From assembly GCA_025936595.1 (NCBI GenBank), contig JAICTB010000002.1, forward strand, positions 1-32,665: 32,665 nucleotides of DNA. Reading direction: 5' to 3'. Shown here in pieces: positions 3,370-24,511 of the stretch; position 1 is the stretch's first letter; each line of letters opens with the position of its first letter. The notes under the pieces were generated by a model. It was not told where the DNA came from and ran no database searches. It saw only the letters and a list, made by a program, of their open reading frames with translations. Position numbers and translations under genes: made by a program. This DNA comes from Thermoleophilia bacterium (GTDB lineage Bacteria; Actinomycetota; Thermoleophilia; Gaiellales; Gaiellaceae).

Positions 3370-3540
3370 CTACTCTGGCTCGGGCGACTCGATCGGCTCG
3401 TCTGCCTCGACCGACTCGTTCGCCGGCGCGAGCTTCTCCGCGGCCCGCGCTTCCTTCTTCTGCTGCTTGCGCTCCCGGCGCTCGCGCAGCGCCTGCTCGC
3501 GCGCCCGCTTGACCATGGTCTCCGGCCTTCTGGAGCCCAT
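3370..3540 (-). CDS. Small highly charged protein, basic N-terminus and acidic tail
   Basis: This 56-residue frame is too short for the ORF track. It begins MGSRRPETMVKRAREQALRE, continues with an Arg/Lys/Gln-rich stretch (RRERKQQKKEARAAEK), and ends in an acidic Glu/Pro tail (EADEPIESPEPE). An internal ATG at 3516 gives a 48-residue alternative. The start at 3540 is only 3 bp beyond the stop of the cold-shock-like gene, implying one transcript and translational coupling. The composition suggests a helical nucleic-acid- or ribosome-binding peptide. I remember similar short MGS+RP-type proteins from high-GC actinobacteria but cannot verify this. No function is assigned; its position next to two cold-shock-domain genes suggests an RNA-related role. 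Confidence 0.65.
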   Translation of the reverse strand: MGSRRPETMVKRAREQALRERRERKQQKKEARAAEKLAPANESVEADEPIESPEPE

Positions 3541-12387: not shown

Positions 12388-12410
12388 AGTGCCCGACAAG
12401 AATCGAACTT
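12388..12410 (-). pseudogene. tRNA 3'-end fragment (T-arm and partial acceptor)
   Basis: The plus strand reads AGTGCCCGACAAGAATCGAACTT. This matches the 3' end of the tRNA-Arg gene at 24440-24511 except for two missing C residues in the acceptor run, and carries the antisense of the universal T-loop GTTCGATTC. To the right the similarity stops, and the T-stem cannot form, so it is not a functional tRNA. Its orientation equals that of the intact tRNA. It may be a remnant attachment site of a tRNA-targeted element or a remnant of another tRNA; a short match to conserved tRNA sequence cannot decide. Confidence 0.45.
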
Positions 12411-21838: not shown

Positions 21839-22106
21839 ATGAGAATCGCGTTCGGGTGCAGCTCGGGCCGGGACTCTCGGCGCTTCCGCAGAGATGCTGA
21901 TCTGACGTGTGTCTGAGCAGGGAAATGTCCGAAAGTCGCTGTCGAAGGTCCTTACATAGAGGTGGAGACTTCTATGCGTCTGGCACCGAGCACGGCAGCC
22001 TGCTCTGACCGGTGCGTCTTCGGCGCCGGCCGAGGTCATTGCCGTTAGCGCTGTCATCGTTGCTGGCAGCGGGTGTCAGCAACGTCGCCAGTAGCAGGGT
22101 GCCGTG

Positions 22107-22273
22107 CGCGTGCCCGCCTTCCCGTTTTGTGGTGCGGGTTTGCGGGGCGCTCCCGTTTCCTCCGTCTTCGACTCCGGATTCCTGACCACCCGCACACTTC
22201 GTGAGCTTGCGCGGGTGGTCAGGAACCACGGGAGCGCTGAGGTTTCTGGTGTGAGCGGGAACGCGGGCACGCG
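22107..22273. repeat. Large nested inverted repeat 1 (167 bp)
   Basis: Three blocks pair in nested order: outer CGCGTGCCCGCCTTCCCG (22107-22124) with 22256-22273, 17 of 18 bp; middle GCGCTCCCGT (22147-22156) with 22228-22237, 10 of 10; inner TTCCTGACCACCCGC (22179-22193) with 22211-22225, 15 of 15. The loop is 17 nt. The left arm has an extra 20 nt between middle and inner blocks. As RNA it would be a long rod; as DNA a potential cruciform. Confidence 0.8.
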
Positions 22274-22496
22274 ATCGGAGACCGGACACCGAACAGTGCG
22301 AATACCGGGTCCGAAGCAGGACCTGTGAAGAAGAGCGGGAGTGCGGGCTGCCGGCCTGGTGAAGAGATGACGGCTGGCGGGCGGCCATGGGTTGCCAGCT
22401 CAGTGGGCAGCGGGTGGCGAGTTGGCGGGCAGTGGGGGACGCGATCATTCGGCCGCCTGTCGTTGCAGCCTGCGAGCTGAGGTCAGGTTCGTCGGC

Positions 22497-22629
22497 GGGG
22501 CGGGCTTCGCGGGTTTGGGTGTGCGGGCTGCGCGCCGGCCGTCAAGCCGCCTTTGGCGGCTCTTCGCTCGCTGCGCTCGTGACTGCCGGCTCTCCGCAGC
22601 CCGCGTGAGCGGCGCTCGAAGCCCGCCCC
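22497..22629. repeat. Large nested inverted repeat 2 (133 bp)
   Basis: Outer GGGGCGGGCTTCG (22497-22509) pairs with 22617-22629, 13 of 13; next GCGGGCTGCG (22523-22532) with 22595-22604, 10 of 10; next GCCGGC-C-GTCA (22534-22544) with TGAC-T-GCCGGC (22580-22590), 10 of 11; at the tip AGCCGCC-TTT-GGCGGCT (22545-22561) forms its own hairpin. The structure ends 22 bp before the leader peptide's AGGAGG, so in the mRNA it forms a structured 5' leader for the recombinase operon. Confidence 0.8.
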
Positions 22630-22663
22630 ACCGTCGATCTCAAACTCAATCAGGAGGTTGCGC

Positions 22664-22974: not shown

Positions 22975-24477
22975 GTGAGGATCGCGACCTACACCCGTAT
23001 CTCGACCGACGAGGAGCACCAGCCTTACTCGCTCGAGGCTCAGGCCGTGCGTCTCGCGGCCTATGTGGAGAGTCAGGAGGGCTGGCGGATCACGCGCCGC
23101 TTTACCGACCAGGCATCCGGCGCGAGCCTCGAGCGGCCCGGCCTGGAGCGGGCGTTGAAGGAGGCGGACGCGAAGCGGTTCGACCTGCTGCTCGTCTACC
23201 GCGTCGACCGCCTGTCGCGGTCGGTGCGCGGGCTCGCGCATGTGCTTGAGCAACTCGACCAGGCCGAGGTGCTCTTCCGCTCGGCGACGGAGCCGTTCGA
23301 CACCTCTAGTTCGGCGGGGCGGATGATGGTGCAGATGCTCGGCGTGTTCGCGGAGTTCGAGCGGGCGACGATTGTCGAGCGGGTGATCGCCGGCATGGAA
23401 CGCAAGGCCGCCCGCGGCGAATGGAACGGCGGCTCCGTGCCCTTCGGCTACCGCCTCGACGCCGAACGCCGCTACCTCGAACCCGAACCGGCCGAAGCAG
23501 CCGTCGTCGAGGAGATCTTCGAGCGGTACGTCGAGCGACTGCACGGCACGCAAGCGATCGCTCGCTGGCTCAGCGGGCGCGGTTACCGGACGAAGCAGAG
23601 TAAGCCGTTCAATCCGCAAGCTGTGCTGACGATCCTGCGCAACCGCGCTTATCTCGGCCAGATCAGTTTCCGCGGCACCCATCACGCCGCACCCCACACG
23701 CCGCTGATCGAGGCGGCGTTGTTCGAGCGGGCGCAGGCGATCTTGCGCGAGCGCGGCGAGGATCACTCGTTGCGCCGCTCGAACCAGTCCGACTACCTGC
23801 TCACGGGGCTCGTGAAGTGCGTCCGCTGCGGCAAGCGCTACCTCGGCGCCGCCGCGAACGGCAACGGCGGCCGCTACCGCTACTACGTCTGCTTCTCACG
23901 GCAACGCTACGGCCGAGGGACCTGTGACGCGGACAGCCTCCCCGCCGACGAGCTCGAGCAGGCAATCCTGGAGCAGCTGCAAGACCTACTCGCGCGCGAG
24001 GACGACGTGCGCGAGGCGATCAGCGTCGCCTTCGCCGACCTCACCAAACAGCAGCCGAAACGCGACGCCGAACTCACTCGCATCGACGCGGACATCCGGA
24101 AGGTCGACGAGGCGCTCGATCGCTACTTCCGCGCCTTCGAGAACGGCTCGATGCCCGAGCAGGCGTGCGCGCCCCGAATCGCCGATCTCACCAAGCGGCT
24201 CTCAGAACTTCAGGCCCGTCGCGACGAACTCGCCGCGGACGCCGCCGACACCCCTGAACCTTTGAGCGAGGACGACCTCCACGCTCTCCAAGCACACGTC
24301 GCCCAAGTGATCGCCGACGGCGAGCCCGCCGCTCGCAAGGCACTGCTGCAAGCACTCGTCGACGAGATCCGCGTCGCAAGCCGCGACGAGATCTATCCCT
24401 TCTTCACATTGCCGACGGTTCGACCACCGTACGGATCAGTGCCCCCGACAAGAATCGAACTTGTGCACACGGTTTAG
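22975..24477 (+). CDS. Large serine recombinase (resolvase/recombinase/zinc ribbon)
   Basis: The 500-residue protein opens with MRIATYTRISTDEEHQPYSLEAQ, in which the Ser of YTRIS (Ser10) is the nucleophile. The resolvase domain (1-150) has LLVYRVDRLSRSVRGL and MMVQMLGVFAEFERATIVER. A recombinase domain (about 165-265) follows with a linker helix and ARWLSGRGYRTKQSKPFNPQAVLTILRNRAYLG. A zinc ribbon begins near residue 282 (CVRCGKRYLG...YVCFSRQRYGRGTC), then a coiled coil typical of large serine integrases. The last ~13 codons read through the antisense strand of the tRNA-Arg gene, and the TAG lies opposite its anticodon arm, so the true original C-terminus may have been altered at the junction. 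Start GTG follows the preceding stop directly. Confidence 0.93.
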   Translation: MRIATYTRISTDEEHQPYSLEAQAVRLAAYVESQEGWRITRRFTDQASGASLERPGLERALKEADAKRFDLLLVYRVDRLSRSVRGLAHVLEQLDQAEVLFRSATEPFDTSSSAGRMMVQMLGVFAEFERATIVERVIAGMERKAARGEWNGGSVPFGYRLDAERRYLEPEPAEAAVVEEIFERYVERLHGTQAIARWLSGRGYRTKQSKPFNPQAVLTILRNRAYLGQISFRGTHHAAPHTPLIEAALFERAQAILRERGEDHSLRRSNQSDYLLTGLVKCVRCGKRYLGAAANGNGGRYRYYVCFSRQRYGRGTCDADSLPADELEQAILEQLQDLLAREDDVREAISVAFADLTKQQPKRDAELTRIDADIRKVDEALDRYFRAFENGSMPEQACAPRIADLTKRLSELQARRDELAADAADTPEPLSEDDLHALQAHVAQVIADGEPAARKALLQALVDEIRVASRDEIYPFFTLPTVRPPYGSVPPTRIELVHTV

Positions 24478-24511
24478 GAAACCGTTGCTCTATCCACTGA
24501 GCTACGGGGGC
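24440..24511 (-). tRNA. tRNA-Arg (anticodon CCT)
   Basis: On the minus strand the sequence folds into a complete cloverleaf of 72 nt: acceptor GCCCCCG / CGGGGGC with discriminator A, D stem GCTC/GAGC, anticodon stem ACGGT/ACCGT with loop TTCCTAA (anticodon CCT, reading AGG), short variable loop, and T stem ACAAG/CTTGT with loop TTCGATT. CCA is not encoded. The 3' half overlaps the last codons of the serine recombinase on the opposite strand, marking it as an integration site. Confidence 0.93.

Follow-up and report, generated by a model that had tools for sequence, protein, structure and literature searches.

A MobC-linked family of nested palindromes as the probable oriT of relaxase-less genomic islands

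A 167-base palindrome at positions 22107-22273 of a 32,665-nucleotide stretch of DNA from a Thermoleophilia bacterium (contig JAICTB010000002.1, positions 1 to 32,665; hereafter the window) is, to judge from sequence, very probably the oriT of a small integrative mobilizable island that has no relaxase of its own and would be mobilised in trans by MOB_C elements. We found that the palindrome is a conserved DNA structure that covaries between relatives, that in ICEs, and in IMEs with a relaxase, it is linked to MobC genes on the same strand, and that further copies lie on integrase islands devoid of a relaxase. Recognising an oriT is difficult, and this is the main reason why the movement of most genomic islands is not understood. 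If our reading is correct, the family described here, which occurs in Thermoleophilia, in Bdellovibrionales and on one IMG/VR contig, would offer a DNA signature by which relaxase-less islands could be searched for and matched to MOB_C helpers in the two bacterial groups.

Structure of the palindrome

The palindrome is built of three nested tiers, and its arms, computed from the sequence, are exactly those described in an earlier note on this DNA (17/18, 10/10 and 15/15 pairs, with a 20-nt insertion on the left). Its parts are as follows.

22045..22106, plus strand: left flank with TGGCA and GCCAGTA motifs, partly conserved with the G055 element in an alignment
22107..22124, plus strand: outer stem, left arm, 17/18 complementary to 22256-22273
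22147..22156, plus strand: middle stem, left arm GCGCTCCCGT, pairing 10/10 with 22228-22237 and covarying between relatives
22157..22178, plus strand: left linker of 22 nt, with a mini-hairpin GTC-TTC-GAC at 22164-22172
22179..22193, plus strand: inner stem, left arm TTCCTGACCACCCGC, the conserved core common to different phyla
22194..22210, plus strand: terminal loop region, with the motif CTCACGA on the minus strand; relatives have C[CT]C[AT]ACGA-like loops
22211..22225, plus strand: inner stem, right arm, 15/15 pairing
22226..22227, plus strand: right linker of 2 nt, from middle to inner stem
22228..22237, plus strand: middle stem, right arm, 10/10 pairing, covarying
22256..22273, plus strand: outer stem, right arm, pairing 17/18 with 22107-22124

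The asymmetric insertion of 20 nt is thus the difference between the 22-nt left and the 2-nt right linker, and the middle stem of the window copy is the equivalent of the variable stem in relatives. Folding of positions 22090-22290 beat that of each of 200 dinucleotide shuffles, both under DNA parameters (z = -5.0) and under those for RNA (z = -5.4), which bears out the view that this much pairing is beyond chance; the structure is also, as had been said of it, far larger than a terminator. A search of Rfam returned no family at the site, in agreement with the earlier statement that no named element with this layout is known. The left flank may possibly be an accessory binding region.

The loop motif of the window copy lies on the minus strand, opposite to that of relatives, while on the plus strand its flanks and the asymmetry of its linkers agree with theirs. 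Because motif and asymmetric linker are thus on different strands, the loop of this copy may be inverted, decayed or degenerate. Downstream of the oriT-like palindrome, and before the integrase gene, comes a second nested palindrome (positions 22480-22640, z -5.6), which was not seen in the relatives looked at.

The probable host island

The surroundings of the palindrome are probably those of an integrated element.

12392..12410, plus strand: probable left attachment-site repeat, an exact 19-nt repeat that gives an island of ~12.05 kb
22975..24477, plus strand: large serine integrase (Pfam Resolvase, Recombinase and Zn_ribbon_recom)
24439..24511, minus strand: tRNA-Arg(CCT), the integration site, called by ARAGORN and overlapped by the 3' end of the integrase gene
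24444..24462, plus strand: attachment-site repeat CCCGACAAGAATCGAACTT within the tRNA gene, an exact 19-nt direct repeat with 12392-12410

Since a 19-nt piece of the tRNA-Arg gene recurs at 12392, the palindrome probably lies inside an island of about 12 kb that is integrated at tRNA-Arg; the left edge, placed solely by this repeat, is likewise probable. No empty site for the island was found among relatives: they have tRNA-Arg and some of the right flank (G008) in common with the window, not the left flank. Partial 3'-half copies of tRNA-Arg(CCT), 41-48 nt long, were seen ~4-8 kb from the full gene in three relatives of the genus (G002:C391, G008:C281 and G011:C497), which suggests that elements of this genus often integrate at this gene.

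The palindrome is located 0.7 kb upstream of the serine integrase gene, the serine recombinase of the earlier note. The tie to mobile DNA is right, but the link to a serine recombinase is indirect, as relatives adjoin serine or tyrosine integrases and the constant partner in helper elements is MobC. The best NCBIfam score of the integrase was for the cassette chromosome recombinase CcrB, far under the cut-off. A relaxase search over all window ORFs of at least 80 aa, which covered the MobC class, gave no MobC or T4CP match, and Pfam found no relaxase, T4CP or T4SS on the main ORFs. No Replic_Relax gene was found in the window's genome, which is 69% complete.

Distribution of the palindrome family

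An initial search with the whole 1.2-kb region gave mostly weak matches, the one useful match being genome G055. This genome (80% identity) and G160 (76%) carry the palindrome without the neighbouring genes of the window. Both copies lie on islands with a tyrosine integrase and 44-nt tRNA repeats at both ends, of 10.2 kb at tRNA-Thr in G055 and of 9.1 kb at tRNA-Met in G160. The three Thermoleophilia islands (at tRNA-Arg, -Thr and -Met) therefore have different integrases and cargo, and the palindrome alone in common. In the window's own genome, at the completeness given above, the palindrome is present in one copy, and its relatives have no common transposon ends, which speaks against the MITE that had been among the first suggestions.

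Scanning ~85,000 genomes with the exact core pattern yielded 11 stretches, 8 of which are in Bdellovibrionaceae MAGs. The Bdellovibrionaceae copies have the same layout, with a conserved inner hairpin, a left mini-hairpin and a variable outer stem, and mini-hairpins like the left one of the window were found in many relatives. Moreover, a covariance model made from four Bdellovibrio copies only retrieved the window copy on the plus strand (30 bits, E 0.002) as well as that of G160 (E 0.03). Several of the Bdellovibrionaceae loci are full ICEs with VirB4, VirB6, VirB8, VirB9 and VirB10-like genes, a VirD4-type coupling protein and a 265-aa protein, followed by the palindrome, small genes, an integrase and, in several, a tRNA. 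In genomes G168 and G166, relaxase-less copies of the palindrome occur alongside ICE copies in one genome.

Two exact-core scans of viral contigs gave 0 and 0 matches. With a looser pattern there were 37 matches, and one of them looks real. This match (L139, IMGVR_UViG_2713896875_000003, positions 3386-3445) is the sole one of the 37 with an adjoining MobC gene, and the only one to combine this with a T4CP and a long extended stem. On this 'viral' contig T4CP, palindrome and MobC stand in a row, so that it probably represents an element capable of conjugation or mobilisation, not a virus. Searches of a plasmid collection with DNA and protein gave only a weak Spiroplasma MobC-like match and short chance matches.

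Two further matches were considered individually. One in G361, from a scan of the class, lies inside a long ORF without an extended stem and was taken as chance. In the actinobacterium Kiruna2_bin-0700 (L051, 19939-19987), a perfect TTCCTGACCACCCAATCA... hairpin lies by a methyltransferase-like gene and another ORF, cut by the contig end, and it may be a further copy of the palindrome. At three Bdellovibrionaceae loci (L052, L053 and L054) the contig breaks right at the palindrome. This suggests that the palindrome interferes with assembly, and that counts of its copies in MAGs are too low.

The MobC relaxase as partner of the palindrome

All 27 MobC homologues in palindrome loci are encoded 33-232 bp from the palindrome and on the same strand, mostly with an adjoining T4CP gene. 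The position relative to mobC varies, the palindrome being 5' in some elements and 3' in others. By the profile and fold comparisons below, the constant partner of the palindrome in the putative helper elements is a MobC relaxase. The 265-aa Bdellovibrio proteins had no Pfam match even at E 5. With the NCBIfam 'MobC family replication-relaxation protein' two of them matched at E 9e-8 and 7e-6 and a third at 0.045, and E 4e-5 was also reached among palindrome-linked proteins. Matches to PF13814, which is the MobC superfamily (PMC5357655), were likewise present among the palindrome-linked MobC proteins, and a profile derived from these MobC proteins matched reading-frame fragments of CloDF13 MobC (E 6e-6 and 2e-4). 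The catalytic core P133 D134 E152 E154 K158 R162 is invariant in 27 of 27 homologues; MOB_C relaxases are of the PD-(D/E)XK type (PMC12857230). For the 265-aa protein a winged helix and a nuclease-like domain were predicted (pLDDT 86). A sequence search of the PDB gave no match, and matches of the predicted fold were weak (E 0.007 at best), among them MarR-type winged helices and restriction-endonuclease-like folds such as YaeQ and EcoO109I.

We also examined MobC genes that had not been selected by way of the palindrome. A profile search of 12 genomes returned 16 mobC genes above 100 bits, of which 10 adjoin a palindrome of the exact pattern. The other six all have a variant-core palindrome with the loop motif kept, and these six were searched for only after they had been predicted, at the predicted place. 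Changes in the variant cores are compensated across the arms (TTCCTGTCC/GGACAGGAA, TTCGTGACC/GGTCACGAA, TTCGTAACC/GGTTACGAA and CTAGTGACC/GGTCACTAG). Weaker MobC-like matches were not all accompanied by a palindrome (L216, L217).

Of 129 genomes of the window's order, 13 have PF13814, and the two other genomes with the palindrome (G055 and G160) are among them. The PF13814 loci of these two (L088 and L089) have no such palindrome adjoining, so that their Replic_Relax elements either belong to another subfamily or do not act as helpers. As most other Replic_Relax loci of the order also have no such palindrome, it would go with one MobC subfamily. In G102, which belongs to this order, two Replic_Relax genes are paired with two palindromes lying 33 and 95 bp upstream. 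One of these loci is ICE-like, with T4CP and VirB4-like genes, and the other is an IME with a tyrosine integrase by tRNA-Met. A separate scan of the class (399 genomes) gave these two as the only other credible palindromes.

Covariation of the arms

In an alignment of 11 copies with hand-registered arms (A8), pairing holds in 95% of cells, and changes on both sides were seen at 15 of 24 pairs; this alignment was built by hand from equal-length arms with the register set by eye, and its covariation count leans towards structure. In the control, 0 of 500 shuffles reached the observed value, and slid registers gave at most 0.106 against 0.464. Two other alignments did not enter the counts: A7 (R1-based), which mixes both strands, was unused, and A9, whose inner arms were partly picked for complementarity, was left out. 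The outer stem varies freely yet with compensation, and arms that change without compensation, which the earlier note had named as contrary evidence, were not what we found. The asymmetry of the linkers is kept as well, the left one being longer than the right in 27 of 30 distinct relatives.

Alternative functions of the palindrome

Among the functions suggested before, a recombination or replication site came nearest to the one proposed here. An sso or double-strand replication origin of the excised or transferred circle, rather than a nicking site, nevertheless seems unlikely. Such sso sites are known on ICEs, for instance ICEBs1 (PMC4595007), and MobC proteins are annotated as 'replication-relaxation' proteins. 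However, the occurrence of the same core and loop motif across phyla with one relaxase subfamily fits a cognate protein better than a host polymerase. Moreover, the relaxase-less islands share this site alone, and an sso without an oriT elsewhere would give them no mobility.

An RNA element of a mobilisation or integrase operon (a leader, attenuator or small RNA) is less probable still. The RNA fold is strong and covaries, the palindrome is often upstream of an integrase gene or mobC on the same strand, and a mobilisation sRNA is known from SGI1 (PMC9299015). Yet among 30 distinct outer stems, selected by Watson-Crick pairing alone, G.T mismatches (5) are rarer than A.C mismatches (15). Since a transcript tolerates G.U but not A.C, selection on DNA rather than RNA is favoured, and the structured RNA offered in the earlier note loses ground accordingly, also for want of an Rfam match. 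In addition, the palindrome is 5' or 3' of mobC depending on the element, and in G055 it is opposite to the integrase gene.

An attachment or accessory site of the neighbouring recombinase, as the serine integrase 0.7 kb downstream and the integrases near many relatives might suggest, is highly improbable, because the neighbouring integrases belong to two unrelated families (serine and tyrosine), the putative attachment repeats are elsewhere, in tRNA genes, and near some of the copies linked to mobC there is no integrase at all.

A model for mobilisation

With the palindrome as an oriT, the serine integrase would excise the island from tRNA-Arg as a circle. A MOB_C-type relaxase (MobC/Replic_Relax, with a winged helix and a PD...ExE...K nuclease) from a co-resident conjugative element would then recognise the extruded or melted palindrome and presumably nick one strand in or near it. 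This strand would be exported via the coupling protein and type IV secretion system of the conjugative element, and would be recircularised and then integrated in the recipient. Nicking, transfer and the identity of a helper for this island are inferred. Both stems vary but the loop motif does not, which makes this motif the best candidate for a sequence-specific contact; as the nic site it would be a guess.

In a wider form of this model, the MobC subfamily would read the shape and a C[CT]C[AT]ACGA-like loop, not a fixed stem sequence. The three-way-junction palindromes found across phyla would then be its recognition site. Many islands of uncultured bacteria that lack a relaxase would have this site alone, and it would be usable as a search handle for such hitch-hiker islands. 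We consider this wider form to have an even chance of being right. The oriT reading itself, if it holds, would already provide a relaxase family that seems to recognise its site by structure, and it predicts specific helper-hitcher pairs within single genomes (G166, G168 and G475).

Comparison with known systems

The MOB_C oriTs of CloDF13 and pAD1 are alike in that the relaxase is of the same class and the site adjoins the relaxase and T4CP genes. In pAD1, however, the TraX binding site is a set of five direct repeats at a distance of 70-120 bp from nic (PMC12857230). The CloDF13 plasmid has no CTGACC...GGTCAG palindrome, whereas the family described here has a three-way-junction palindrome of 90-170 bp. 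Plasmid records gave no convincing match to it.

An oriT on an island without a relaxase is an iOriT in the terms of PMC11389934. The MGI islands, such as MGIVflInd1 with SXT (PMC5704250, PMC11389934), resemble the window island in having a site-specific integrase, no relaxase or T4SS found and an oriT-like site in common with conjugative elements. They differ in that their helper oriT is MOB_H and their hosts are gammaproteobacteria, while the window type is MOB_C-linked, occurs in Thermoleophilia and Bdellovibrionales, and is not accompanied by any helper seen in the window's genome. Mobilisation of the island SGI1 (PMC6414798, PMC9299015) is also atypical, and its oriT is close to its mobilisation genes, but it encodes the tyrosine-recombinase-like MpsA and the sgm-sRNA, neither of which was seen in the window.

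In the published literature searched, the palindrome family is not described and no oriT is reported for Thermoleophilia or Bdellovibrionales. Thus, oriTs and oriT-only islands are already known kinds, but the palindrome family looks new, as it is absent from CloDF13 and the plasmid records, the oriT of pAD1 is organised differently and no published description was found. It lives beside one nickase class in predatory bacteria and soil actinobacteria, and alone on islands.
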